64,000 nt of DNA from Lutimonas saemankumensis (GTDB lineage: Bacteria; Bacteroidota; Bacteroidia; Flavobacteriales; Flavobacteriaceae), in contig NZ_JAIUZR010000003.1 in NCBI RefSeq assembly GCF_020171465.1, forward strand, positions 1,178,001 to 1,242,000. The letters run 5' to 3'. The notes below the pieces were generated by a model, which was not told the origin of the DNA, did not search any database, and saw nothing but the letters and a program-made list of their open reading frames with translations. Made by a program: the position numbers and the translations under genes. This document shows positions 45,804 through 59,420 of the stretch, piece after piece. Position 1 is the stretch's first letter. Each line of letters starts with the position of its first letter.

Positions 45804-47024
45804 ATGAGGTCATTTTCAAACTTTACCATATTCCTGCTCTGCCTGTCAATACTGGTGATTGATATTCTGGCCTTTTATTGGCTTCAATCCATAACCCAGT
45901 TGATCAATTTGCCCAATCTAAGGCTCAGCATCCATATTGCTTTTTGGTTTTTTACCATTGGTCTGATTACGGCAATCGTAATTTTGAAAATAAGGCTTGA
46001 CAATATTCATCCCCAAAGAAAGCACCTTTTGATCACCTCTTTATACGGATTGACTGTATCGTCCTTTATTCCCAAAATAATTTTTGTGATCATAATTTCC
46101 TTCTTATATTTTTCAAATTATATGCTTTCGGAAAGGGAGTCACTGATGGTTATTCCGGTAATCGGCTTACTCGCCGGGTTTTTGCCATTTTTTGTCATCA
46201 TCTATGCCATTTTCAAGGCCCTCTATCGCTTCAAGGTTCATCATCTTCACTTAAAAACTAAACTTTTACCCCTAAATTTTGAGGGGCTTCGTGTTGTTCA
46301 GATCTCTGACCTTCATCTTGGAAGTTTTAATTTCAGATATCATATTCTGGAGAGGGCGGTTAAGATCATAAATCATCTTAAGCCGGATCTAATCGTTTTT
46401 ACCGGTGACCTGGTCAATAATTTTGCCTGGGAATTAAAAGGATGGAGTGAAGTTCTGGATAAATTAGAAGCAAAAAAAGGGAAATTTGCGGTTCTGGGAA
46501 ACCATGATTATGGAGATTACAGCTCCTGGGAGACACCGGAATTGAAAAAGAGTAACTTCGAATCGATCAAATATTTTTATAAAAAAATAGGGTTTAACCT
46601 TCTGATGAACGAGTCTTTTGTCATTAAAAATGAAGCGGATGAGATTGCCATTCTGGGCGTTGAGAATTGGGGAGTACCTCCTTTCAAACAATATGGAGAC
46701 CTGGAAAAATCATTAGAGAATGTGAAATCAATTCCGTTTAAAATCTTACTAAGCCATGACCCTACGCATTGGCCTGAGGAAGTTGTATCTTATACCAACA
46801 TTTATCTCACTCTCTCTGGACACACACATGGTATGCAAGCCGGCGTCAGGTTGAAAAATAAGCAATGGAGCCCGATCAAATTCAAGTATAAACACTGGGC
46901 AGGTTTGCACCAGGAAGGAGATCAATACCTGAATGTCAACAGGGGTTTAGGCTGGTTGGGATTTCCGGGAAGATTAGGTATGAGGCCTGAGATAACGTGT
47001 ATTGATGTCAAAACTCAAACCTGA
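45804..47024 (+). CDS. Membrane metallophosphoesterase
   Basis: A 406-residue protein with four N-terminal membrane helices (1-about 135) and a calcineurin-like phosphoesterase domain: VVQISDLHLGSF, VFTGDLVNN, VLGNHDYGDY, LSHDPTHW, LSGHTHGMQAG. This is the layout of YkuE-type or phospholipid head-group phosphoesterases. It starts 4 bp after the CDP-alcohol transferase, so it may remove the phosphate from that enzyme's product; that is inference from position. Its last codons overlap the convergent patatin gene by 10 bp. Confidence 0.9.
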   Translation: MRSFSNFTIFLLCLSILVIDILAFYWLQSITQLINLPNLRLSIHIAFWFFTIGLITAIVILKIRLDNIHPQRKHLLITSLYGLTVSSFIPKIIFVIIISFLYFSNYMLSERESLMVIPVIGLLAGFLPFFVIIYAIFKALYRFKVHHLHLKTKLLPLNFEGLRVVQISDLHLGSFNFRYHILERAVKIINHLKPDLIVFTGDLVNNFAWELKGWSEVLDKLEAKKGKFAVLGNHDYGDYSSWETPELKKSNFESIKYFYKKIGFNLLMNESFVIKNEADEIAILGVENWGVPPFKQYGDLEKSLENVKSIPFKILLSHDPTHWPEEVVSYTNIYLTLSGHTHGMQAGVRLKNKQWSPIKFKYKHWAGLHQEGDQYLNVNRGLGWLGFPGRLGMRPEITCIDVKTQT

Positions 47025-47803
47025 AAGAAACTGAGGTCCTTTAATTTAGATAATTCATCATAAGTACTTTCATAACCAATTTGAAATATTTCATCTATTT
47101 TCCCCACATCAAGCAATCCGTACTTTACGAGCTTTAAAGGTGCGATCATCAGTTTACAATGCTTAAATTTAGCATGGGATCGCTTTGAATAATTAATTCT
47201 TATAGCGCGCTCAAGAACATTCACCGAATACTTGAGTTCCTCAGGTTCTATTTCTCCCAAAGGACTGGTATATGAACCAATCATCAGGTTACAGGATGAC
47301 TTAATCGGTGCGATTGGAAAATTATCAAGAATTCCACCATCTCCATATAGTTCGTTCTCAATATTGACCGGTGAGAATAGACCCGGAAACGCGGATGAGG
47401 CCAATAGGGGCCTTATCAACTGCCCCTCTTCAAATACCCTGAGACGACCATTGCACATATTAACGGCAGACACAAAAAGTTTTTTTCTAAGAAAGGAGAA
47501 ACTATCGTGATCCAGGTATTTCAAAAAATCATTGTAAAATTTATCCGTATCAATAAAACCGGGTTTTGAAAAAGCAAATCGATTGAGGTGAAACAAAGGG
47601 GTTTTCTTAAAAAAATCAAGCATTTCATCAGGATCATAGCCGTTACAAAATAAAGCCCCAACAACTGCCCCAGCGGAAGATCCTGAAACAATATCAGGAT
47701 TAATGTTATGCTCCAATAAGGCTTTGATCACCCCTATATGCGCAATTCCTCTCACTCCTCCACCAGACAATACTAATCCAAGAGTATTCTTTTTTTCATT
47801 CAT
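47015..47803 (-). CDS. Patatin-like phospholipase
   Basis: A 262-residue phospholipase of the RssA/YlaK type: SGGGVRGIAHIGV (oxyanion hole), G-S-S-A-G with nucleophile Ser43, and DGGILDNFPI carrying the catalytic Asp. No signal peptide. The ATG at 47803 fits better than TTG at 47806. It lies 24 bp downstream of mlaD and therefore ends the Mla operon, which suggests a role in membrane phospholipid turnover coupled to lipid trafficking. Confidence 0.92.
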   Translation of the reverse strand: MNEKKNTLGLVLSGGGVRGIAHIGVIKALLEHNINPDIVSGSSAGAVVGALFCNGYDPDEMLDFFKKTPLFHLNRFAFSKPGFIDTDKFYNDFLKYLDHDSFSFLRKKLFVSAVNMCNGRLRVFEEGQLIRPLLASSAFPGLFSPVNIENELYGDGGILDNFPIAPIKSSCNLMIGSYTSPLGEIEPEELKYSVNVLERAIRINYSKRSHAKFKHCKLMIAPLKLVKYGLLDVGKIDEIFQIGYESTYDELSKLKDLSFFQV

Positions 47804-47826
47804 CAATTTTCAACTCAAATTCGTAA

Positions 47827-48825
47827 TCATTCCTTAAGTTTATTCTGCCTTTTTTCTTCTTTTAACCTTTCTTTCTCCTGCTTTCTAAAGTATCCTTTAA
47901 AAAAAGTATTGTGTCTTAATGCCTCCAGGTTTTCATTAAGCATTTCGCTTCCTTTCTTTATGTTCTTCACCGTTTCTCCTATATCCTGAACCAAAACTGT
48001 ATCCGATACTATATAATTCAATGTTCCTTGACTATCCTTAATTTCAACAATAAAATCGTTTAAATTTCTAATCACCAGATCTATATCTTCACTCGATTTC
48101 TCAAGATTGCTGATAATATTTCGAAATTGCCTGGCTGACACTGAATCTCTAACCAATACGTTAATCAGGTTGTCCTCGTTATTGACCACATTTACAAAGT
48201 CTTTTACTTCGTTTATGGCCTTTGAAGCTTCAACACTGGCCTGATTCAGGTTCTGAAATGTTTGCTTTAAATCATCACCCATTTCCTTATCGTTTAGAAG
48301 AAGGGACAATGTTCCATCTCCTTCGTTTATACTCTTTGTTATTTTCAGGAGTTCCTTTGAAAGTTCAGCGGCATTATCGTTTGTTACACTTAAGGTAGAC
48401 ATCATATCGGCAGAAGATTTTCTTTTGAGCGATTGAATTGTATCACCTTCCTGAAGCATGTCACCACGAGAGCCTCCAGGAAAAATATTAACAACCATAC
48501 TTCCCACCAATCCATCAGAGCCCACAACAGCTACGGCGCTTTGTTTCATGTGCCTTCTGATTTCCTCGTCGATGACCATATCAACACAAATTGTAGAGTC
48601 GTCCACCATCATTATATTTTTAACGGTTCCAACATTGATACCTGAAAAACGCACGTTATTGCCTAATTTCAATCCATTCACGTTACTGAAAACTGCGGTT
48701 ATTTTAAAAGTATTACCAAATAAATTTTGCTTTTTGCCTATGAAGTAAAGTGCAATAATCAATATGGCTCCAATCAGAATTACGAAAATTCCAAGTTTAG
48801 TTTTTTCTGTGTTTGTAACTTTCAT
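47827..48825 (-). CDS. mlaD: MlaD-type MCE-domain lipid transport protein
   Basis: A 332-residue protein anchored by one N-terminal helix (KLGIFVILIGAILIIALYFIG) with an MCE domain (about 30-125, FSNVNGLKLGNNVRFSGINVGTVKNI, VAVVGSDGLVGSMVVNIFPG) and a long helical tail to about 320 that ends in charged Lys/Arg/Glu residues. It binds and passes phospholipid across the periplasm as part of the Mla ABC system. It follows mlaF by 6 bp. Confidence 0.92.
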   Translation of the reverse strand: MKVTNTEKTKLGIFVILIGAILIIALYFIGKKQNLFGNTFKITAVFSNVNGLKLGNNVRFSGINVGTVKNIMMVDDSTICVDMVIDEEIRRHMKQSAVAVVGSDGLVGSMVVNIFPGGSRGDMLQEGDTIQSLKRKSSADMMSTLSVTNDNAAELSKELLKITKSINEGDGTLSLLLNDKEMGDDLKQTFQNLNQASVEASKAINEVKDFVNVVNNEDNLINVLVRDSVSARQFRNIISNLEKSSEDIDLVIRNLNDFIVEIKDSQGTLNYIVSDTVLVQDIGETVKNIKKGSEMLNENLEALRHNTFFKGYFRKQEKERLKEEKRQNKLKE

Positions 48826-48831
48826 AAACGT

Positions 48832-49572
48832 TTATTTAAAAAAGGCCTGTATTCTGGGATCTTCCGAAGAAGACAATTCCTTAAAGGTTCCCTCAGCATA
48901 ATTAATTCCATCGATCAACAAAATCATTCTATCTGCAATAACTCTGGAACAATCCACATCATGTGTAATGATCAAGGCCGATGATCCATAAATTTCCTGT
49001 ATGTCCCTCATCAATTGAATGATTTCTTTAGCCGTTATCGGGTCAAGTCCGGTAGTGGGTTCATCGTATATAATAATTTTAGGATGTAATATGATTGCTC
49101 GTGCAAGCGCCACTCGTCTTTTCATTCCTCCCGAAAGTTCGTTTGGCATTAATGCAAGGGTTTCAAGCAGGCCCACGCTTTCCAGGGCCTGATGGACAAG
49201 CTTATCTTTTTGTTCCTGACTAATGTGTTGCTTTCTCAAAGGAAATTCGAGATTATCCTTGACGGTCATGGAATCGTATAGGGCACTCCCCTGAAAAAGG
49301 AATCCAATCTTTTTTCTTAGGGCATCCAATTCGGCCTGTTCCAGTTCAAGTACATCATTACCCATAATCTCTATATGGCCCGAATCCGGTTGCATTAAGC
49401 CCATCAAACATTTTATCATCACCGATTTTCCTGATCCTGATTTCCCCATAATCACCAGGTTTTCACCTTTATACAAACGCATATTGAAACCATTAAGAAC
49501 TTCATTGTCACCAAAGTGCTTTACAAGATTCTTTATCTCCAGAATATTCTTTATGTCCTTATCCGTATCCAT
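48832..49572 (-). CDS. mlaF: MlaF-type ABC transporter ATPase
   Basis: A 246-residue ATP-binding subunit. Walker A MGKSGSGKSVMIKC (about 42-55), Q-loop LFQGSALYDSMTV, signature LSGGMKRRVALARA, Walker B IIIYDEPTTGLDP and switch His ITHDVD. FQGSALYDSMTVKDNLEFPL matches MlaF rather than other importers. It follows mlaE by 5 bp and precedes mlaD by 6 bp. Confidence 0.94.
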   Translation of the reverse strand: MDTDKDIKNILEIKNLVKHFGDNEVLNGFNMRLYKGENLVIMGKSGSGKSVMIKCLMGLMQPDSGHIEIMGNDVLELEQAELDALRKKIGFLFQGSALYDSMTVKDNLEFPLRKQHISQEQKDKLVHQALESVGLLETLALMPNELSGGMKRRVALARAIILHPKIIIYDEPTTGLDPITAKEIIQLMRDIQEIYGSSALIITHDVDCSRVIADRMILLIDGINYAEGTFKELSSSEDPRIQAFFK

Positions 49573-49577
49573 TTCGA

Positions 49578-50357
49578 TCAGTTATAAAAAATATCAGTTA
49601 CAAAAACAGCAATAAAGTCAATAATGAATAAAAGCATCGAAGTATATACCACTGCTGAATTGGACGCCTCACCAACTCCTACTGTACCCCGCTCACAATA
49701 ATAGCCTTTGTAACATCCAACGAGGCCAATGGCAAAACCAAAGAAGAATGACTTGATGATTGCCGGGTTGATATCCGAATATTCCAGGGCATCAAATACA
49801 TTATTAAAAAACAGTTGAAATGAAACATCTCCCTTTAGATTCTCAACCAGTGCTGAGCCAATCAACGCGATGGCATCCCCATAGATTATTAACAGGGGAA
49901 TCATCAATGTAGCTGCCAGAATGCGTGTAACTACCAGGTATTTAAAAGGATTGGTCCCGGATACCTCCATGGCATCTATTTGTTCCGTAACCCGCATTGA
50001 ACCCAATTCCGCCCCTATCCCCGAACTAATTCGTCCCGCGCAAATCAAGGAAATAATAACAGGTCCAATTTCTCTTACAATTGAGATACTGACCATAGAG
50101 GGCATCCATGATTCAGCCCCAAATTCCATCAGTGTCGGACGGGTTTGCAAGGTCATCACAAGCCCGAGAATAAATCCAGTGACCCCCACAAGAGTAAGCG
50201 ATTTATTACCCATTTTATAGCACTGATGCATCAGTTCTCTCAGTTCAAAAGGCCTGGAAAAAACTTCTCTGAAAAAACGTCCCGCAAAATAGGACAGATC
50301 TCCTACTTCTATCAGAAAAGACCTGATACTTTTTGGTATGTGCATCTCATAATTCAT
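49578..50357 (-). CDS. mlaE: MlaE-type ABC transporter permease
   Basis: A 259-residue integral membrane permease of the MlaE/YrbE family: a cytosolic N-terminus, then helices with VGVTGFILGLVMTLQTRPTLMEFGAESWMPS, REIGPVIISLICAGRISSGIGAELGSMRVTEQIDAMEVSG and GFAIGLVGCYKGYYCERGTVGVGEASNSAVVYTSM. EIGPV and GAELGSMRVTEQIDAM are signature stretches. First gene of mlaE-mlaF-mlaD-patatin. Confidence 0.95.
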   Translation of the reverse strand: MNYEMHIPKSIRSFLIEVGDLSYFAGRFFREVFSRPFELRELMHQCYKMGNKSLTLVGVTGFILGLVMTLQTRPTLMEFGAESWMPSMVSISIVREIGPVIISLICAGRISSGIGAELGSMRVTEQIDAMEVSGTNPFKYLVVTRILAATLMIPLLIIYGDAIALIGSALVENLKGDVSFQLFFNNVFDALEYSDINPAIIKSFFFGFAIGLVGCYKGYYCERGTVGVGEASNSAVVYTSMLLFIIDFIAVFVTDIFYN

Positions 50358-50521: not shown

Positions 50522-51610
50522 TTAACTCAATAAAATTCGCGCCCCGCCGCTTTGTGCTGATTTAAATATTGATTCCACAATTTGAATATCTCTCAATCCT
50601 TCTTCCCCAGGTACTACGGGGTCTTGATTTTCTATAATGGCAATTGCATCGTCATCCATTTGTTTAGCTTGCTGGTTTCCTGAAAAGGGTAAAAACGTAC
50701 TGCCTGAACTTGTTCTCCCCTGAACTCCACTGTAGGATTGAAACGGCCTTAATTCGTACCATCCAGAAGAACAATCTATTTTTAAATGATTTATATTCTC
50801 TGCAAAGGAAGTCTTGCATTTAGCCATAACTCCATTAGGAAACTCAAGTTCAAAAAACGTAGTCTCATCTACTTTGAAAAGTTCAGGCCTGGAATTCTCA
50901 ATTCGAGCGGATACACTTATGGGTTCCATTTGGGTTGCATATCGGACAGCATTAAGAGGATATACTCCCATATCAAACATGGCGCCTCCTCCTAATTCAG
51001 GATGAAGTTTCCAATGGCTTCCATCGCCTCCCCGGTTATAAAAACCAGCTTCAGCCTTCAATTTCTCTATTCGTCCAAAAGGTCTTGATCCCGCCATTCG
51101 AATGATTTCCTGAGTTACGGGTTCATGCTGCATTCGATAGCCTATTGTGAGCTGCACTTTATTCTTCCTGCATGAATCGATCATAGCTTTGCAATCCTTT
51201 GCTGTGGTTGCCATTGGTTTTTCACACCATACATGTTTTCCGGCTTCAGCTCCAATGATTGTATATTTTTTATGCATTGCATTGGGCAAAACAATGTAAA
51301 CTATATCAATATCGTCATTGTTAACCATTTGATACATGTTTTCATAATTATAAACATTCCTGTCAGCAATTCCGTACTTTGCCTGCCATACAGGAATTTT
51401 TGAAGGAGTTCCCGTAACGATGCCTCTTAATTCACAATATTTAGTCAGTTGTAAAGCAGGGGCAAGAAGATCCCTGCTGTAGTATCCAAGTCCTACCAAT
51501 GCAACTCCCAGCTTTCGGGAAGGTCCGGATTTTAAAAATTCAGGAATAGGGAAAACACTTGAGGCTGCAACCAAACCAGATTGCCTAATGAAATTACGTC
51601 TGCTGATCAT
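50522..51610 (-). CDS. Gfo/Idh/MocA-family oxidoreductase, Tat-exported
   Basis: A 362-residue NAD(P)-dependent oxidoreductase with a Tat signal (MISRRNFIRQSGLVAASS, 1-about 20). Rossmann part VALVGLGYYSRDLLAPAL, VYIVLPNAMHKKYTI, HVWCEKPMATT (conserved Lys of EKP) and the C-terminal sheet domain with GGGAMFDMGVYPLNA. Exported members of the family act on sugars or glycan fragments in the periplasm and often keep their cofactor tightly bound. No sugar genes are adjacent. It is followed by a hairpin and is separate from the polyketide operon, which ends 161 bp upstream of its start. Confidence 0.88.
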   Translation of the reverse strand: MISRRNFIRQSGLVAASSVFPIPEFLKSGPSRKLGVALVGLGYYSRDLLAPALQLTKYCELRGIVTGTPSKIPVWQAKYGIADRNVYNYENMYQMVNNDDIDIVYIVLPNAMHKKYTIIGAEAGKHVWCEKPMATTAKDCKAMIDSCRKNKVQLTIGYRMQHEPVTQEIIRMAGSRPFGRIEKLKAEAGFYNRGGDGSHWKLHPELGGGAMFDMGVYPLNAVRYATQMEPISVSARIENSRPELFKVDETTFFELEFPNGVMAKCKTSFAENINHLKIDCSSGWYELRPFQSYSGVQGRTSSGSTFLPFSGNQQAKQMDDDAIAIIENQDPVVPGEEGLRDIQIVESIFKSAQSGGARILLS

Positions 51611-51770: not shown

Positions 51771-52340
51771 TTAAACAGTGCAAAGAAAACTTCCAAATCG
51801 TCCATGATGACTTACAGAGCAAAAAATATCGGCCTTGTGACCTCTCAAAAAAACTTCAGGAACACCTTCATTTTTTAGGATATCAATATCTGAAGGGTCC
51901 ATTTCTAATTTTTTGGCGAGTTCATCTTTTAGTTTGGAATAAAGAAGCTTCGAGACAATTTTCCAATTATATAATCCGGTTCTAACAGGTTTACACCAGG
52001 CATCCTTTTTATTTATTGTCCATGTCAAGACATACTCTTTCGTTAAAATACTTCTTGTATGATATATCCTTGAGTCAATTTGAATCAGGCCAGATTCAGA
52101 GTTAATCACTTCACATTCAAATTTGAAAGGATTAAAACTTCGTAAACGCGTAAGATGAAAATCGGCTTTGTAGGCGCTTTCTTTCATTGACCACAACCTC
52201 CATATCGCCATTTCCTGATCCTTCTCACTTTCGATAAATTGAATCTCGTTTTTCGAAAAGAGTTTTTCAAGATATCCATTCCGCCTCCAGTCAGACTTTA
52301 CTCTGGCTTCTTTAAGATCAACGATGTCAGTTCCAACCAT
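51771..52340 (-). CDS. 4'-phosphopantetheinyl transferase
   Basis: A 189-residue Sfp/AcpS-type transferase that puts the phosphopantetheine arm on carrier proteins. MVGTDIVDLKEA carries the Mg2+-binding Asp and W-S-M-K-E-S-A-Y-K-A (about 49-58) the second conserved block. In keeping with its position 20 bp after the ACP gene, it is likely the dedicated activator of that ACP, and it closes the polyketide operon. Confidence 0.9.
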   Translation of the reverse strand: MVGTDIVDLKEARVKSDWRRNGYLEKLFSKNEIQFIESEKDQEMAIWRLWSMKESAYKADFHLTRLRSFNPFKFECEVINSESGLIQIDSRIYHTRSILTKEYVLTWTINKKDAWCKPVRTGLYNWKIVSKLLYSKLKDELAKKLEMDPSDIDILKNEGVPEVFLRGHKADIFCSVSHHGRFGSFLCTV

Positions 52341-52360
52341 CTATTGATTACTTCATTTAA

Positions 52361-52609
52361 TTACTTCATTTTACTTTCTATGATCTCCATCGCTTTTTCA
52401 ACCGAAAGCATTTGCTCCATGGATTCGTTATCAATTTCAATATCAAAGGCATCTTCTACATCAAGAACTATATCCACAAGGTTTGCGGAATTTATCTTAA
52501 GATCATTGATAAAATCCGTTTTTTCATTTAGGTTATCAAAGGCTTGCTGATCCTGAATGTAGGGCTTCACAATTTCCTTCAGCTGAATGATCAATTCTTC
52601 TTTTTTCAT
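52361..52609 (-). CDS. Acyl carrier protein of the polyketide operon
   Basis: An 82-residue acidic four-helix carrier protein. The attachment Ser41 is in INSANLVDIVLDVEDAFDIEI, so the usual DSL motif reads NSA. The rest, KTDFINDLKIN and ESMEQMLSVEKAMEIIESK, matches the fold. It is distinct from a housekeeping AcpP by motif and location. It lies 3 bp downstream of the ketosynthase gene and upstream of the PPTase. Confidence 0.9.
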   Translation of the reverse strand: MKKEELIIQLKEIVKPYIQDQQAFDNLNEKTDFINDLKINSANLVDIVLDVEDAFDIEIDNESMEQMLSVEKAMEIIESKMK

Positions 52610-52612
52610 ATG

Positions 52613-53887
52613 TTAATTTTTTAGTTTTCTAAAAATGATACAAGCATTTACGTCTCCGAACCCAAAACTTGCTTTGATTACGGTCCTGACATCCTGCGCC
52701 TTGATCTTGCCGGAAACCGAGGACGGGTTAATGAGCTCAATAATATCAGGATGCAGATCCTCGCTGTTAATTGACGGAAAGAGAAATCCATGATAAATTT
52801 GAAGAACAGAAGCAATGCACTCTATACTCCCTGCGGCAGCGAGGCAATGGCCTGTCATACTTTTTAGGGAGTTTATGTAAGGGAAATTTTTTGAGGAATA
52901 ACCCAGGGCCTCTTTCCAGTTGTAAATTTCGAGCACATCTTTTGTCGTCGCCGTTAGATGCCCGTTAATAGCGTCGATGGAGTTTGGATCGATACCCGCC
53001 TCTTTAACGGCTTCACGAATACACTTTTTAACCGCTGTGGCATTAGGTGCAGTCATTGTGCCTCCCTGACGCTGACCTCCCGAGTTAATATGCCCCCCTA
53101 GAATCTCAGCATATATTTTTGCTCCTCTGTCCAAAGCCCATTCCAAATCCTCCAAAATCATGGCACCTGCCCCCGACCCAGGAACAAAGCCAGCCGCTGA
53201 AGCACTCATTGGCCTCGAACCCTTTTCAGGCGTATCATTGTGTTTATAGGTCATCACACGCATGGCATCGAAGCCACCCCAGATATAAGGACCGTGGTCA
53301 CTGCAACTTCCTACCAGCATCCTCCTGGCCCTGCCTGACCTTATCCTATCCACACCCATCAATATAGACTCGGTTCCCGTAGTGCAAGCCGATGAATTTG
53401 TCGTTACCTGATTTCCACAGCCTAAAATTCCTCCCAGATATGCACTGATTCCGCTCGCCATGGTTTGTGCAACTGTCGTGCTTCCCAATCGCCGCACTTT
53501 TTTGTCATCAAGTTTATAAATGGCTTCACGAAACTTATCGACTCCTGACTGACCCGTACCAAAAATAATTCCCGTGTCATAATCCTCCTCTGAATTCTGA
53601 TCAATCGCCAATCCTGCATCAGTCCAGGCATCCATACCGGCAATGCATCCGTAAAGTATTCCCGAACTGTTGAAATTCTTTCGTTGCAAATCCGTAAGGT
53701 ACCGGCTTATCAAATCTTCAGAAAGCTTCGGAACCGCGCCAATACAGCAGGAAAAACCCAGCTCTTTCAATTCCTGAAAGTATTCAACCCCTGATCTTCC
53801 CGTTCGTATTCCCTGTACGAAATCATCTATCCCAACTCCATTAGGAGCAACAACACCCATTCCCGTAATAACAACTCTTTTTTTCAT
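52613..53887 (-). CDS. Beta-ketoacyl-ACP synthase (FabF/KAS II-like) of the polyketide operon
   Basis: A 424-residue thiolase-fold ketosynthase. Catalytic Cys168 (NSSACTTG), His310 (INGHLTATTKDVLE), Lys342 and His347 (SLKSMTGHCLAAAG) give the complete Cys-His-His set, so it should be active. The N-terminal VVITGMGVVAPNG and PGSGAGAMILEDLEWAL are typical of the KAS II branch. It overlaps the dehydratase stop codon (TAATG), which points to coupled translation. Likely elongates an acyl chain on the operon's own ACP. Confidence 0.93.
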   Translation of the reverse strand: MKKRVVITGMGVVAPNGVGIDDFVQGIRTGRSGVEYFQELKELGFSCCIGAVPKLSEDLISRYLTDLQRKNFNSSGILYGCIAGMDAWTDAGLAIDQNSEEDYDTGIIFGTGQSGVDKFREAIYKLDDKKVRRLGSTTVAQTMASGISAYLGGILGCGNQVTTNSSACTTGTESILMGVDRIRSGRARRMLVGSCSDHGPYIWGGFDAMRVMTYKHNDTPEKGSRPMSASAAGFVPGSGAGAMILEDLEWALDRGAKIYAEILGGHINSGGQRQGGTMTAPNATAVKKCIREAVKEAGIDPNSIDAINGHLTATTKDVLEIYNWKEALGYSSKNFPYINSLKSMTGHCLAAAGSIECIASVLQIYHGFLFPSINSEDLHPDIIELINPSSVSGKIKAQDVRTVIKASFGFGDVNACIIFRKLKN

Positions 53888-54327
53888 TATTCGCCAACAA
53901 TCATTCCTGCAATTTCACCCCTGCATACCAGTTCTTTCTTTTCATTCAGCATTCGTACAGAACATTTTAATTTATTAAATCGAAAGTAGATTTTTTCTGA
54001 TTCTACTATTACTTTTTCTCCGGGATATACAGGAAGGTAAAAATCAATTTGATTCGAAGTCAGCGCAATTTTTGGCCTGATTTCAACTTCCTTTTTGCCT
54101 AATAAAAAAATCCCCATGCAAACAACACCAATCTGGGCCATCACTTCGGTCAAAATGACTCCGGGGGTAACCGGGTTATCCTTAAAATGACCCGCATAAA
54201 AGAAACTATTCTTCCTGAAGGTATAGCTCCCCTGAACCCCTTTCTCATTTATGGTCATGATTTCATCCACAAACAAGAATGGTTCGGTAAACGGCAATGC
54301 ATTGATAATTTCTTCCTTGTTCATCAT
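53887..54327 (-). CDS. FabZ-like 3-hydroxyacyl-ACP dehydratase (hotdog fold)
   Basis: A 146-residue hotdog-fold protein. HFKDNPVTPGVILTEVMAQIG is the FabZ/FabA active-site stretch, with catalytic His and Glu in FabZ spacing (H-x-x-x-x-P-V-x-P-G-V, then E). ALPFTEPFLFVDEI and EKVIVESEKIYFRFNKLKCSVRML also fit. It should remove water from the 3-hydroxyacyl-ACP made by the operon's ketosynthase after ketoreduction. Its start codon follows the SDR stop directly. Confidence 0.92.
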   Translation of the reverse strand: MMNKEEIINALPFTEPFLFVDEIMTINEKGVQGSYTFRKNSFFYAGHFKDNPVTPGVILTEVMAQIGVVCMGIFLLGKKEVEIRPKIALTSNQIDFYLPVYPGEKVIVESEKIYFRFNKLKCSVRMLNEKKELVCRGEIAGMIVGE

Positions 54328-55119
54328 CTAGCTTAAATGTTCCCCTCCATCCACGGGAATTATACAACCATTGATCCATGCAGCTTCTTCTTTGCATAAA
54401 AGATATACGGCATTGGCAACATCCTTGTCCAGAGTAAGACGTCCAAATGGATTTCGCTTTAAAGCATGAGCAACTAATTTTTCACTTCCCGGAATCATTC
54501 TAAACGATTTGGTATTGGTTACTCCCGCCTGAATGCAGTTAGCCCTTACTCCTTTTGAGGCGAATTCAATTGCAATATTCCGGGTGATCGCTTCTAAGGA
54601 TGCTTTCGCTGCTGAAACAGCGGCGTAATTCTTCAATGGCCTTCTTCCTCCTTCACTTGTAAAACTTATCAACCTAAAATCCTTGGCCATTTTAGAGGTT
54701 GAATAAACAGCCTTGAACCAGTCATAAAGACTCAACGCCATGGCATCTACCGTGATTTCAAGATCAAGTTTGGAAAGTTCAGCATTATCCACATCAATCA
54801 TGGGTTTTAAATTACCTTTTGCAATACTGTGGACCAAGCATTTAACAACACCTTTATCACCAAGATTATCAAGAAGAATTTTCAAAATTTCCTCTCTGTT
54901 TTCCGTCTTTAGTAAATCCTTATTAAAGCTAATAAGAGAAACCTGATTTGCCCTGATCTCGTCGAAATGAGCTTCTATTTCAGGCATTTCACTTTTCCGG
55001 TCTCGATGCACGATACATATATTCATGCCATAACGAGACAGCTTTTTGGCCGTAGCAAGACCCAAACCACTTGAGCCACCTAAAATTAAGGCCCAATTAT
55101 TTTTAAACTCTTTTACCAT
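54328..55119 (-). CDS. SDR-family enoyl-ACP reductase-like protein (FabL-like)
   Basis: A 263-residue short-chain dehydrogenase. Cofactor loop GGSSGLGLATA (about 14-24), VHSIAKG, and a catalytic N-Y-x6-K (NYAAVSAAK) rather than the classical Y-x3-K, followed by ASLEAITRNIAIEFASKGVRANCIQAGVTNT and a C-terminal VDGGEHL. The Y-x6-K and the sequence style are those of FabI/FabL enoyl reductases, so I expect it to reduce enoyl-ACP. It overlaps the type III PKS by 7 bp. Confidence 0.85.
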   Translation of the reverse strand: MVKEFKNNWALILGGSSGLGLATAKKLSRYGMNICIVHRDRKSEMPEIEAHFDEIRANQVSLISFNKDLLKTENREEILKILLDNLGDKGVVKCLVHSIAKGNLKPMIDVDNAELSKLDLEITVDAMALSLYDWFKAVYSTSKMAKDFRLISFTSEGGRRPLKNYAAVSAAKASLEAITRNIAIEFASKGVRANCIQAGVTNTKSFRMIPGSEKLVAHALKRNPFGRLTLDKDVANAVYLLCKEEAAWINGCIIPVDGGEHLS

Positions 55120-56165
55120 TCCAATAATATTCTTTGAGCGGAGAACCCCGGCCCAAAACTTAACATCAAACCTTTTTCCCCCGGTTTAATATCCTTTTCC
55201 AGAAACCGTTCAAGAACATACAATACCGTTACGCTTGACATATTTCCATACAATCGAAGCACTTCTTTTGTATCGTCAATATTCTTTCCCGAAGATGCGA
55301 ATAGGCTCTCTACGGTTTGAACAATTTTCTTGCCTCCGGGATGAAAAACCAGGTGATCTATATCGTTTATTGTCAAACTATTCTGCTCCAAAAAAGGATG
55401 CACGATTTTTGGGAAATGAGCTGCTATGGTTTCAGGAACTTCCTTATCAAGTACCATTTGCAGTCCTGTATTTCTCAATTTAAACCCCATCATTTTTTCA
55501 GCATTAAAAAAATGATACATGGATTCATCTAAGATCGCCGGTCCGTTTTTATCTTCTTCGGAGCTGAGGATCACAGCAGCTGCACCATCTCCAAAAATTG
55601 CCGCACTAACCATGTTAACCATTGAAAAATCCTCAAGCTGAAACGTTGCAGTTGGAGATTCAACAGCCACAACTGCAGCACATTTATCCGGATTGGCCTG
55701 CAAAAAATTCTTGGCATAGATCATGCCCGAGACCCCAGCAGCACAACCCATTTCAGTTACTGGTAATCGTACAACATCCTGGCGCATATCCAGCCGGTTG
55801 ATCAAATAGGCATCAATAGACGGGATCATAATTCCGGTACAGCTTACTGTTATCAGGAAATCAACATCTTTAGGAGCAAGATTTGCCTTTTGTAAAGCTT
55901 CAGTTAAACAATTTTCAGCCAGAAGTACCGATTCTCTTTCATAAATATCATTTTTCTCTTCAAAGGAAGATTTATGAAAAACCTCATCAGCATCCATAAT
56001 GGAGTACCTGCGGTCCACGCCGGCATTCTCAAAGATCTTCTTAATTTTCCTTCGAAATCTGGGCTCCTGGTCCTGTAACCATAATTCCAGGAAAGGAAGT
56101 ATTTCCCCTGTATCTCTTGTATATTTTGGCAGCGCCTTTGCTACCGATTTAACTCTAACTTTCAT
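55113..56165 (-). CDS. Type III polyketide synthase (chalcone synthase-like)
   Basis: A 350-residue thiolase-fold enzyme that condenses malonyl units onto a starter without a carrier protein. The Cys-His-Asn triad is complete: Cys141 (EMGCAAGVSG), His275 (VFHPGGKKIV) and Asn308 (YGNMSSVTV), and LSFGPGFSAQRILLEW is the family end motif. I start at ATG 56165, inside the methyltransferase's last codons; an upstream ATG (56219) would overlap much more. Expected products are alkylresorcinols, alkylpyrones or similar; the starter could be the acyl chain made by the adjacent ketosynthase, dehydratase and reductase. Confidence 0.93.
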   Translation of the reverse strand: MKVRVKSVAKALPKYTRDTGEILPFLELWLQDQEPRFRRKIKKIFENAGVDRRYSIMDADEVFHKSSFEEKNDIYERESVLLAENCLTEALQKANLAPKDVDFLITVSCTGIMIPSIDAYLINRLDMRQDVVRLPVTEMGCAAGVSGMIYAKNFLQANPDKCAAVVAVESPTATFQLEDFSMVNMVSAAIFGDGAAAVILSSEEDKNGPAILDESMYHFFNAEKMMGFKLRNTGLQMVLDKEVPETIAAHFPKIVHPFLEQNSLTINDIDHLVFHPGGKKIVQTVESLFASSGKNIDDTKEVLRLYGNMSSVTVLYVLERFLEKDIKPGEKGLMLSFGPGFSAQRILLEW

Positions 56166-56868
56166 TCTTTGAATATAGTAACCACTGGTAACGAAAAGCC
56201 CATTTCCAGGCAATTTCAAAACGCATTCCCATCATTTTTGAAAAGTGTTCCAGTTCATCTTTTTTAAAGCCTCTCAAAATCGATATAAGCCCATCGTTTC
56301 GAATGATCTTATTGTTGATAAAAAAACTGATAATGTTGAATAAAAAATAAGCGAGTTTGTTTCGATGAAGATCATTGATCACAACTCCCAAACTTGCATT
56401 TTTGCATAATAAATTTAGTTTACTAATAATTTCTTCATCTTTTAAATGATGTAAAAACAAGGTTGATACCGCAATATCATACTCAAGCTCTTCGAATTCT
56501 TTAGAAAAAATATCAAGTTGAAAATAGCTGATATTATTATGAGAATTTGAGAGTTCGGCGGCATAAGCTATAGTGTCGGCATTTGCATCGATACCGATCA
56601 GTTCGAATTGATACCCCTTTTGTAATCCCATATTCGCAATCCTTCTGAGCATATCACCATTTCCACACCCCAGATCGACTATCTTCACCTTTCCTTTGGG
56701 ATTTTCTGACTTTAAGATTTTATCAATACCATCCAATGATACATGATTTCCACCCAGCCACCAGTTAATCCTGGATAAAATGTCAAGATTATCTCTTAAG
56801 TCCTTACCCCTCATCGTAAAATCATCCATGATTTCTCTTTGCTCACTTCTATACCTGGTACTAATCAT
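56155..56868 (-). CDS. Class I SAM-dependent methyltransferase
   Basis: A 237-residue methyltransferase with motif I VDLGCGNGDMLRRIA (about 61-75) and acidic GIDANADT, then ISYFQLDIFSKEFEELEYDIAVSTLFLHHL as motif IV. The C-terminal part is helical and includes a hydrophobic stretch (FLFNIISFFINNK) that suggests a membrane-associated, lipid-like substrate. Starts in an ATGA overlap with the upstream flavoprotein gene. Likely methylates the polyketide product, by analogy with type III PKS/methyltransferase/flavoprotein sets in actinobacteria. Confidence 0.85.
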   Translation of the reverse strand: MISTRYRSEQREIMDDFTMRGKDLRDNLDILSRINWWLGGNHVSLDGIDKILKSENPKGKVKIVDLGCGNGDMLRRIANMGLQKGYQFELIGIDANADTIAYAAELSNSHNNISYFQLDIFSKEFEELEYDIAVSTLFLHHLKDEEIISKLNLLCKNASLGVVINDLHRNKLAYFLFNIISFFINNKIIRNDGLISILRGFKKDELEHFSKMMGMRFEIAWKWAFRYQWLLYSKNES

Positions 56869-57992
56869 AAGCTTTCAACGGGTTTGCCATGGGTTCGTTT
56901 TATGATCTGTTCAATGACAGCCGGATAGGATTTGAGGTAGTTTATCACGAATAAAGACAATTGTTTGTATTCAAACAATCGCGAAAGAACCCTTCCAGTC
57001 CTCAATCTGGAAGAAAAAGCCTTCTTCCAAAGAACCCTGTATTTCTTTTCCAACTGTTCTCTGGTCATAGACTTTGCGTTAAAATATTCAACAAGAAGAT
57101 CTGAAATCATCCTGGCACTTAAAATGGCCATACTCATTCCATTCCCACATAAGGGATGAATCATTCCTGCAGCGTCTCCACACATGATTACATGATCCTC
57201 GATCAATGACTTCGATTCAAAGGATATCTGACTAATGGCCAGCGGCTTATCAAAAAGCATTTGGGCATTAAGCAAAATGTTCTTGAGGAATTTATTCTTG
57301 AATAATACCTTTTCTTCAAATTCTTCTATGTTTCTGTACTTTTTAAATTCCTCATAACTGACTATATAACAAATATTGAGTGCCCCATTTTCAATTTTTG
57401 AGACTCCGCAGTAGCCTCCGTAAAAATTATGAAGTCCCACCACATTGTCAGGATAATCACCTTTATAATGGGCCTTAACTGCCAAATAAGGAGCAGATGA
57501 GTTCATAAAACGCCTTTTTAATTTTGTATCGAGTGAAGACCTTTTGCCATAAGCTCCAAGCACAAATTTGGCTTTTACTGTTCCTTTATCCTTAAGTTCA
57601 AGCCGAAAGAGGTCTCCATGAAATTTAATATCCGTAACCGTATCATGCAAGAGGATAATTTCCTTTTGTTTTAGAATCTCATACAAGGCTGCATCCAGGG
57701 TGTAGCGACTGAGACTAAATCCTCCCAAAGGAAGATCTGACATACAGGAATCACCGGTCACAGCTGAAAGTTCAAAATGCTCCATTTTTTTAGCACCGTA
57801 TGAAAATGGATCCATCCCCAAAGAAATCAAATAGGGCAAAACCTCATTTGAAATATATTCTCCGCAAACCTTGTGCCTGGGATATTCTTCTTTCTCAACG
57901 AGAAGTGATTGTATTCCATATTTGGACAAATGTAAGGAAGCAGTTAATCCGGCGAGACCTCCACCAACAATAACAACTTTAAAACTCGACAT
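56865..57992 (-). CDS. FAD-dependent oxidoreductase (geranylgeranyl reductase/monooxygenase-like)
   Basis: A 375-residue flavoprotein. FAD-binding VVIVGGGLAGLTASLHLSKYG (7-27) and EKEEYPRHKVCGEYIS (PRxKxCGE, as in geranylgeranyl reductase-type proteins), and the GD motif VIMCGDAAGMIHPLCGNGMSMAI. First gene of the polyketide operon. It could hydroxylate an aromatic ring, or reduce double bonds in a long chain. The neighbouring methyltransferase and type III PKS make a modification of the polyketide the best guess. Confidence 0.88.
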   Translation of the reverse strand: MSSFKVVIVGGGLAGLTASLHLSKYGIQSLLVEKEEYPRHKVCGEYISNEVLPYLISLGMDPFSYGAKKMEHFELSAVTGDSCMSDLPLGGFSLSRYTLDAALYEILKQKEIILLHDTVTDIKFHGDLFRLELKDKGTVKAKFVLGAYGKRSSLDTKLKRRFMNSSAPYLAVKAHYKGDYPDNVVGLHNFYGGYCGVSKIENGALNICYIVSYEEFKKYRNIEEFEEKVLFKNKFLKNILLNAQMLFDKPLAISQISFESKSLIEDHVIMCGDAAGMIHPLCGNGMSMAILSARMISDLLVEYFNAKSMTREQLEKKYRVLWKKAFSSRLRTGRVLSRLFEYKQLSLFVINYLKSYPAVIEQIIKRTHGKPVESL

Positions 57993-58160: not shown

Positions 58161-59420
58161 ATGGCAAAAAGAAATAGAATCATAATCATAGGAGCTGGTT
58201 TTGGCGGAATAACGCTGGCAAAATTTCTAAAAAATGAAAATGTCGAAGTACTTCTAATTGATCAGAACAACTACCATAACTTTCAACCTCTGATGTATCA
58301 AATTGCCACAGGAGGTTTAGAGCCCTATAGTATTGCATATCCCGTTCGAAGAATTCTCAGGCAACGCAAAAATGTCAGATTTAGAATGGCAAAAGTGAAA
58401 TCTGTGGATACGGATAAGAAAAAATTGAAAACCTCAGTGGGCAGTTTTTATTACGATTACCTGATCATTGCCACGGGAAGCACAAGTAACTTTTATGATT
58501 TTGACTCGATTAAAAATATTCTTTTTCCTCTGAAGTCAATTCCGGATGCCTTGAATATGAGAAGTTTTATTTTTCAAAACCTGGAAAAATCCCTCACACG
58601 ACAAAAGGATGAATCCCTTGAAGAAATCCTTAATATTGCAGTCGTGGGCGGGGGTCCGGCCGGAATCGAATTGGCAGGTGCACTGGCGGAAATGAAAAAA
58701 TATGTGATTCCCAAAGATTTTCCAGATCTTGACATTTCCAAGTTAAGCATCAATCTCTACCAGTCTGCTCCAAAATTGTTAAAGACAATGTCCGATGAGG
58801 CTTCAGAAAAAACCCTTGAATATCTCCAAAACCTCGGTATCAATGTATTTCTGAATTCAAAGGTAACAAACTATGATGGTGATAAACTGAGCCTTGCAGA
58901 TGGAAGCTCCTTTCCTACAGATACACTTATCTGGACTGCGGGAGTTAAGGGAGCTCCAATTAAAGGCCTGCCAGAAAATTCACTTACCGGAGGTAACAGA
59001 ATATTAGTTGATGCATTTAACAGGGTTAGTTACACTGAACGCGTTTTTGCCATTGGTGACGTAGCCGCTCATATTACCGAGGAAAATCCGAGAGGACTTC
59101 CTATGCTCGCCCCGGTAGCCAAGCAACAGGGAAAGTTACTGGCAAAAAATATCCTTAGAATGATGAAGCATAAACCGATTCGTCCATTCGTTTACAAAGA
59201 CAGAGGGGTTATGGCAACCATAGGTCGAAAAAAAGCTGTTGTTGATCTGCCGAACTGGAAATTTCAAGGTTCATTTGCCTGGTTTCTTTGGATGTTTGTA
59301 CACATCGTATCCCTCATTGGATTCAGAAATAAGTTCGTTGCATTTTTGGACTGGTTTACAAATTACTTAACCTACGACAAACCACTGGGTTTGATTCTCA
59401 GGCCTCACAAAAGGAAGTAA
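58161..59420 (+). CDS. ndh: Type II NADH dehydrogenase
   Basis: A 419-residue membrane-associated flavoprotein that passes electrons from NADH to quinone without pumping protons. Two Rossmann glycine loops, IIIIGAGFGGITLAKFL (8-24) for FAD and VAVVGGGPAGIELAGALAEM (about 160-179) for NADH; TGSTSNFYD, VFAIGDVAAH and the quinone-side APVAKQQGKLLAKNI are typical. The C-terminal helical stretch FAWFLWMFVHIVSLIGFRNKFVAFLDWF binds the membrane. Monocistronic. Confidence 0.93.
   Translation: MAKRNRIIIIGAGFGGITLAKFLKNENVEVLLIDQNNYHNFQPLMYQIATGGLEPYSIAYPVRRILRQRKNVRFRMAKVKSVDTDKKKLKTSVGSFYYDYLIIATGSTSNFYDFDSIKNILFPLKSIPDALNMRSFIFQNLEKSLTRQKDESLEEILNIAVVGGGPAGIELAGALAEMKKYVIPKDFPDLDISKLSINLYQSAPKLLKTMSDEASEKTLEYLQNLGINVFLNSKVTNYDGDKLSLADGSSFPTDTLIWTAGVKGAPIKGLPENSLTGGNRILVDAFNRVSYTERVFAIGDVAAHITEENPRGLPMLAPVAKQQGKLLAKNILRMMKHKPIRPFVYKDRGVMATIGRKKAVVDLPNWKFQGSFAWFLWMFVHIVSLIGFRNKFVAFLDWFTNYLTYDKPLGLILRPHKRK

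Follow-up and report, generated by a model that had tools for sequence, protein, structure and literature searches.

A 64,000-nucleotide stretch of Lutimonas saemankumensis DNA (contig NZ_JAIUZR010000003.1, positions 1,178,001 to 1,242,000; hereafter the window) contains an operon with a type III polyketide synthase (PKS) gene at positions 51771-57992. The operon consists of eight coupled open reading frames (ORFs), all on the minus strand and running from 57992 to 51771, that encode in order a flavoprotein, a methyltransferase (MT), the type III PKS, a short-chain dehydrogenase/reductase (SDR), a FabZ-like dehydratase (DH), a ketosynthase (KS), an acyl carrier protein (ACP) and a phosphopantetheinyl transferase (PPTase). 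Eight linked genes in this order had been proposed in an earlier sequence-only reading of the DNA, and the ORFs, their coordinates and the Pfam and NCBIfam families bore this out. Operons combining PKS, MT and flavoprotein genes are already known, and what is new here is the dedicated acyl-ACP module that stands with this gene set.

The first gene (56865-57992) encodes a 375-aa flavin adenine dinucleotide (FAD)-dependent oxidoreductase or hydroxylase, geranylgeranyl-reductase/UbiH-like (Pfam FAD_binding_3, E = 5.9e-13; NCBIfam GG-red-SF, 6.6e-28, under its cut-off), followed by a 237-aa, PRK06202-like MT dependent on S-adenosylmethionine (56155-56868; Methyltransf_25, 2e-12; NF004851, 1.7e-34, under its cut-off). 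For the PKS (350 aa; 55113-56165; Pfam Chal_sti_synt_N/C), the ATG at 56165 was taken as the start codon, in line with the starts of homologous proteins. The SDR (263 aa; 54328-55119; adh_short_C2, 1.4e-38) is a FabL-like enoyl reductase (ER), with FabL as its closest NCBIfam match (NF005975, 2.6e-42, at 144.9 bits below the curated equivalog cut-off of 328), an enoyl-ACP reductase (NADPH) as its closest PDB match and a Tyr165-x6-Lys172 active site, a spacing that we take to be the mark of FabI/FabL-type enoyl-ACP reductases. The FabZ-like 3-hydroxyacyl-ACP dehydratase (146 aa; 53887-54327; Pfam FabA, 1.1e-13) carries His47 and Glu61, and the FabB/FabF-type KS (424 aa; 52613-53887; Pfam ketoacyl-synt) carries Cys168, His310 and His347. 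The KS scored 273.5 bits with the fabF model (cut-off 493.75), and its closest paralogue in its own genome is 33% identical. The last two genes encode the dedicated ACP with phosphopantetheine-bearing Ser41 (82 aa; 52361-52609; NCBIfam ACP models, best E 1.8e-10, under their cut-offs) and an AcpS/Sfp-type PPTase (189 aa; 51771-52340; Pfam ACPS, 2.7e-15). Pfam cut-offs were passed by seven of the eight proteins, the ACP lying just under (18.5 versus 20.8 bits); among the NCBIfam models listed (for the SDR 25 of 206, for the flavoprotein 25 of 74) none attained its curated threshold, and precise functions are therefore not fixed by NCBIfam.

By coordinates, reading frames overlap at the FAD/MT (4 nt), MT/PKS (11 nt), PKS/ER (7 nt) and FabZ/KS (1 nt) junctions, ER and FabZ abut without a gap, and the gaps at KS/ACP and ACP/PPTase are 3 nt and 20 nt, the latter being the largest of the operon. 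No flavobacterial -33/-7 promoter pair was found upstream of the operon, nor was a stable hairpin seen in an 86-nt segment that spans the PPTase stop codon and the sequence beyond it. Residue conservation was counted in ORF-cluster alignments restricted to rows of 85-115% of the median length. The PKS triad Cys141/His275/Asn308 was unchanged in 81 of 81 rows and the KS residues Cys168, His310, His347 and Lys342 were at least 98% conserved (76 rows), so the catalytic residues that had been called intact in the window are also intact in its relatives. The same applied to FabZ-like His47/Glu61 (74/74 rows), ER Tyr165 and Lys172 (66/66 rows) and ACP Ser41 (at least 98%, 62 rows). Median identity to the window proteins was highest for the PKS (75%) and was 67% for both KS and ACP, with the PPTase as the least conserved member (33%, 71 loci).

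A scan of GTDB genomes returned at least 592 pattern matches, of which at least 579 were confirmed; the best 80 of these were taken as named loci and lean towards close kin, a lean from which a 395-genome draw of the phylum and a 299-genome draw of the family are free. Among the 80 named loci, tblastn recovered the full set of eight proteins in unchanged order at 60, the order that the sequence-only reading had suggested seeking in other genomes. The other 20 comprise 14 without the ER only, two without the PPTase only (L064, L088) and four that are split or cut by contig ends (L036, L057, L082, L084). No locus with a differing gene order was seen by tblastn among the 80, which together with the shared order at 60 indicates that the arrangement is not due to chance. 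Some of the 60 complete loci hold partial matches (FAD in L097, PPTase in L093, four genes in L055); in L055, from Lacinutrix neustonica, FAD, MT, FabZ and KS are fragmented and PKS, ER, ACP and PPTase are intact reading frames, reflecting either a decaying operon or assembly errors. Locus titles cover Flavobacteriaceae, Chitinophagaceae, Saprospiraceae, Cyclobacteriaceae and Crocinitomicaceae.

In the phylum draw, 33 PKS matches fell below 1e-180 (own genome counted) and the next best was 6.7e-75, a jump that bounds the PKS subfamily sharply; 30 of the 41 same-family genomes, again counting our own, possessed it. The family draw, spread across 236 genera of the window's family, contained the PKS subfamily in 103 of 299 genomes (83 of 236 genera) and the operon-type ACP in 102. 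Both occurred together in 101 genomes, the PKS only in two (G566, G713), the ACP only in one (G683) and neither in 195, counts that are uncorrected for shared descent, and the two genes lay within 8 kb of each other in 97 of the 101 genomes with both. The carrier protein is thus linked to the PKS, as sought in a type III PKS fed with acyl-ACP, and the operon is a conserved and widespread Bacteroidota system.

The ER proved to be optional. It was present in 63 and absent from 14 of the 77 loci in which PKS and FabZ were called (76 named loci and the window), and was also absent from 20 of 28 further loci (L102-L129), which retained FabZ in 28/28 cases and KS in 27/28, the last being cut by the 4-kb view. 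No ER orthologue was found elsewhere in the 20 genomes with an ER-less operon (best score 93 bits; 26 genomes searched), in comparison to 371-442 bits in the six searched genomes with an operon ER. The PPTase alone was absent from two of the 80 named loci. The near-constant set consists of FAD, MT, PKS, FabZ, KS and ACP.

Genomes in which the operon is not contiguous were informative on how its parts are kept. FAD-MT-PKS-ER and FabZ-KS-ACP occupy two sites 355 kb apart on one contig in G612 and two contigs in G572, with no PPTase match at either half-operon of these genomes. The halves also lie on two contigs in G696, where the FAD-MT-PKS-ER contig continues for about 1.8 kb beyond the ER without FabZ and the KS has one internal stop codon. 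PKS and ACP are on separate contigs in G498, the operon is cut by a contig end in G713, and 63 matched residues near the KS end plus the ACP remain in G683, a remnant that looks like a deletion scar. In G566 the first half, containing the PKS, is present and no operon-type KS was found in the assembly. As a rule, therefore, PKS and module are retained or lost jointly, G566 being one counter-case. As a side observation, some extra ORF lies at the PKS/ER-FabZ junction in 13 loci, and split operons break at the same junction. An extra gene of one cluster was seen there in six loci (L024, L043, L072, L078, L079, L086), four of them ER-less, and in L072 it is an IS200-like transposase (Pfam Y1_Tnp).

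Other Bacteroidota type III PKS loci were compared by picking 60 from the matches listed in the phylum draw and setting aside four of module type (L146-L149); contig ends shortened eight of the remaining 56. In none of these 56 loci did the 6 kb on either side of the PKS contain a profile match to KS, ACP or FabZ, and with the 97 of 101 linked genomes this supports a tie of the chain-building genes to this particular PKS. The 56 loci comprised 28 PKS-MT-FAD triads, four PKS genes with MT and 24 with neither MT nor FAD. Four of the triads (L140, L142, L168, L176) had FAD matches of only 28-37 bits that were set apart in the FAD tree, and the ER profile gave SDR-level matches of 32-67 bits at L175, L176 and L187. 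At L130, the sole lone-PKS locus checked, an ICMT-family methyltransferase gene is next to the PKS, the same arrangement of PKS then ICMT as in the Bacillus BpsA/BpsB pair.

Phylogenetic analysis of these sequences, with 27 module rows representing the module clade in the PKS, FAD and MT trees and in the joint alignment, placed the module PKSs in one clade (100/100) of the 83-row, midpoint-rooted PKS tree, in which L184 and L138 form long branches (L184 was left out of the joint alignment). This clade joined 14 PKSs that lack MT and FAD (99/94) and was separate from all 28 triads. In the FAD tree, by comparison, the module clade (100/100) was nested in a 51-row group with 24 triads (100/100), and the MT tree likewise grouped 27 module and 24 triad rows (100/100), although the module rows formed no single clean clade. 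For the tailoring genes this supports a kinship with PKS/methyltransferase/flavoprotein sets, the kind of gene set that the sequence-only reading had cited as a source of methylated phenolic lipids. Because the PKS and FAD/MT trees disagree, the PKS and the tailoring genes apparently came from separate sources; midpoint roots and the long module PKS stem (1.73) make this support for a mixed ancestry, not proof.

The PKS model (pLDDT 80.3) has the chalcone-synthase fold and is closest to Pks11 (TM 0.86), with CylI next; by sequence Pks11 was also the best match, followed by tetrahydroxynaphthalene synthase (THNS) and CylI, and the best NCBIfam model was DpgA (186.9 bits versus a cut-off of 425). 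At the position of chalcone synthase (CHS) Gly256 the module PKSs have Phe228 (27/27), in comparison to Trp in 55 of 55 others (28 triads, 23 lone PKSs and four PKS-MT pairs) and Tyr in THNS, and at the CHS Thr194 position they have Pro171 (27/27) in comparison to Cys in the same 55. CHS position 256 would correspond to the ArsB Trp281/ArsC Gly284 site, judging by the spacing of ArsC Gly284/Met293 against CHS Gly256/Phe265 (PMC6274091); the ArsB site was placed through the CHS alignment, as ArsB was not among the PDB matches listed. Trp at this position is a mark of polyketide-quinone (PkQ) synthases (PMC9927152), and it is lacking in the module PKS and present in 28 of the 28 sampled triads. 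With Gly in place of Trp281, ArsB forms pyrones and no longer acts as a resorcinol synthase, and an aromatic side chain is regarded as the wall that favours the resorcinol (PMC6274091), so the aromatic Phe228 would suggest that a resorcinol is the favoured product of the module PKS. Residues 222-233 of the model, including Phe228, have pLDDT values under 50. Three other candidate features were considered and rejected. Leu272, three residues before the catalytic His, is Leu in 80 of 81 module PKSs and in 0 of 55 other PKSs with a readable motif, but the ArsC Gly284/Met293 spacing (PMC6274091) and the joint alignment indicate Phe228 and not Leu272 as the ArsB Trp281 site. Lys279/Lys280 as a FabH-like docking pair was dropped because the pair is also found in other groups. 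Cys109, at the alignment position of the second catalytic Cys in THNS, does not discriminate a THNS-type synthase as a Cys is also present there in 28 of 28 triads.

Several known systems share part of this architecture. Aryl polyene and flexirubin (dialkylresorcinol) clusters of Bacteroidota possess discrete KS, DH and ACP genes and form their ring by DarA/DarB, whereas the operon described here has a type III PKS for the ring and no DarB-type ketosynthase (DarB model 20 bits, cut-off 550). As in the hierridin (hidABC) and Planctomycete operons, PKS, MT and flavin oxidoreductase genes are together and an alkyl-phenol product is expected, but a KS/DH/ER/ACP/PPTase module is not described for those operons in the excerpts consulted (PMC8086630, PMC10896814). 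The contiguous genes of the hierridin/polyketide-quinone triad are thus found in our operon; the Bacteroidota triad PKSs, however, are of another lineage than the module PKS and have Trp at the ArsB281 site, HidC itself lying outside the comparison. Planctomycete PKSs from MT-oxidoreductase-PKS operons yield pentadecyl- and heptadecylresorcinols in C. glutamicum, and one of these operons is preceded by a lipid/isoprenoid-binding gene (PMC10896814). PkQ operons produce benzoquinone electron carriers (PMC9927152). The Mycobacterium/Streptomyces pkqABC and srs operons likewise combine PKS, MT and oxidoreductase to yield a methoxylated alkyl-benzoquinone, and differ in their CoA starter, their three genes without an ACP line and the presence of Trp281 (PMC9927152, PMC5916927). 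Feeding of a type III PKS by an ACP-bound chain is in turn shared with Azotobacter ArsABCD and cylindrocyclophane CylB/D/H/I, in which the chain comes from type I fatty acid synthase or PKS proteins in comparison to the discrete type II proteins encoded here (PMC6274091, PMC8086630). Germicidin synthase, SCO7671, ArsB and ArsC are reported to accept acyl-ACP (PMC6274091), and the chain passed to CylI has been lengthened by type I PKSs (PMC8086630).

The product of the eight-gene architecture had been called unassigned, and no assignment was found in the open literature, subscription papers being mostly outside it. In one survey, 9% of the gene clusters of Flavobacteriaceae were type III PKS clusters (PMC7440613), a Leeuwenhoekiella family of such clusters had no MIBiG match (PMC9859067) and a Winogradskyella cluster showed 8% similarity to a beta-lactam cluster (PMC7615552); it is likely that these surveys met the same operon. 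Koreenceine concerns type II PKS genes of Pseudomonas with an inhibitory effect on Flavobacterium and is unrelated to the operon (PMC6498172).

Taken together, we consider that the operon probably makes a ring-headed membrane lipid by a pathway of the hierridin/polyketide-quinone type that has been rewired to a dedicated acyl-ACP line. In this pathway the PPTase would arm the ACP, and the KS and FabZ-like DH, plus the FabL-like ER where present, would build or extend an acyl chain on it, with the ketoreduction step borrowed from housekeeping FabG. The type III PKS would then take the chain straight from the ACP, add malonyl units and cyclise it to an alkyl- or alkenylresorcinol, a pyrone being less likely, after which kinship suggests that the MT and flavoprotein would methylate and hydroxylate the ring to a methoxy-hydroquinone or quinone lipid. 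Handling of this lipid may, in certain lineages, fall to an MMPL-family exporter and a lipid-binding protein of the YceI type. The hand-over from ACP to PKS would be supported genetically by linkage, by co-occurrence and by the absence of acyl-CoA ligase (by Pfam), thioesterase and acyltransferase genes among the eight.

It is important to note that several observations weigh against this interpretation. There is no ketoreductase among the eight genes, so this step has to be supplied from outside the operon (a FabG-level gene elsewhere in the genome scores 340 bits, over the cut-off). The earlier description of the system as self-contained goes too far, given the missing ketoreductase and acyltransferase, the frequently absent ER and the PPTase lacking in two of the 80 named loci. 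G566 retains the PKS without an operon-type KS, and Phe/Pro in place of the Trp/Cys of the 55 other PKSs means that the product of the triads is not simply transferable. The presence of menA in the genome implies that a second quinone is not required. An NDH-2-like dehydrogenase gene at 58161-59420 (plus strand), of a kind that would fit a quinone product, is divergent from the operon, but among 81 compared loci (upstream gene visible in 78) this adjacency is limited to the window and L022, and a respiratory link by neighbourhood was dropped on this account.

The optional ER could also be interpreted as a sign that the obligatory KS, DH and ACP make a conjugated polyenoyl starter in the manner of aryl polyenes, with the ER only trimming double bonds and ER-less species making polyenyl phenolic or quinone pigments. 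This is unlikely, although ER-less operons (14/77 and 20/28 loci) whose genomes hold no other orthologue and yet keep FabZ and KS would fit it, because housekeeping FabI could perform the reduction, the operon is without a ketoreductase and 63 of 77 loci do carry the ER. Alternatively, two separate chains may be involved, such that the PKS draws on acyl-CoA or acyl-ACP from housekeeping metabolism while the acyl group made by KS-DH-ER-ACP is attached to the phenol at a later stage, as in flexirubin-type esters. The separation of the two halves in G612 and G572, and the ability of bare-triad type III PKSs to make resorcinols without a module (PMC10896814), agree with such a scheme; it is nonetheless rather doubtful, since an acyltransferase or ligase is lacking, the module occurs at 0 of 56 other type III PKS loci, and the ER remains in the PKS half of the split genomes, so that both halves seem to share chain building. 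Least probable, in our estimate, is that the head is made before the chain, with the PKS forming a small aromatic acid from a malonyl starter in DpgA or THNS style that is loaded on the ACP and extended by KS-DH-ER. DpgA as best NCBIfam model and the alignment of Cys109 with the second THNS Cys point in this direction, yet no adenylation or acyltransferase gene is available for loading a free acid, the long-chain enzyme Pks11 is the best match by both sequence and fold with CylI second by fold, and the Cys is shared by all 28 triads.

Neighbouring genes varied between loci. Of 78 loci, 29 have a YceI-family gene directly upstream of the flavoprotein gene (representative in L029, Pfam E 1.7e-28), and three loci carry one just past the PPTase gene. 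An MMPL-family gene comes immediately after the PPTase gene in 16 of 71 loci; the window's operon is adjoined by neither. YceI-family proteins bind lipids. Genes for an MlaE permease, a presumed ABC ATPase (named from its sequence), MlaD and a patatin-like phospholipase lie about 1.4 kb downstream of the operon (window 47015-50357, minus strand), with a Gfo/Idh-type oxidoreductase gene (50522-51610) in between. In 9-kb views, what we take from sequence to be a biotin carboxylase (accC-like) gene is upstream of the operon in 26 of the 80 named loci (e.g. L024), and presumed accB-like and fabH-like genes were seen in 24 and 18 respectively. A 149-aa protein with a weak, under-cut-off GreA/GreB C-terminal match occurs in 51 of 81 loci (e.g. 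L029:6131-6580), upstream of the PKS in 34 and downstream in 17. A second MT of the same cluster is located between ACP and PPTase in L026 and L028 and near the end in L097, accompanied by a small membrane-like protein without a Pfam match (L026:14204-14632).

In summary, the operon would offer a natural example, open to genetic tests, of a type III PKS supplied by discrete type II fatty acid enzymes. The occurrence of the PKS subfamily in 83 of 236 sampled genera, and of loci labelled as four other families, indicates that the lipid it helps to make is probably common among environmental bacteria, although no name for it was found in the open literature. More tentatively, it is possible that one Bacteroidota PKS clade gave up CoA starters in favour of a type II acyl-ACP line of its own and now yields an undescribed class of methoxylated alkyl- or polyenyl-quinone membrane lipids, which would protect the membrane or act as a second electron carrier in a third of the sampled Flavobacteriaceae genera. 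The presence or absence of the ER across these hosts is a natural variable that should alter the side chain of the product.

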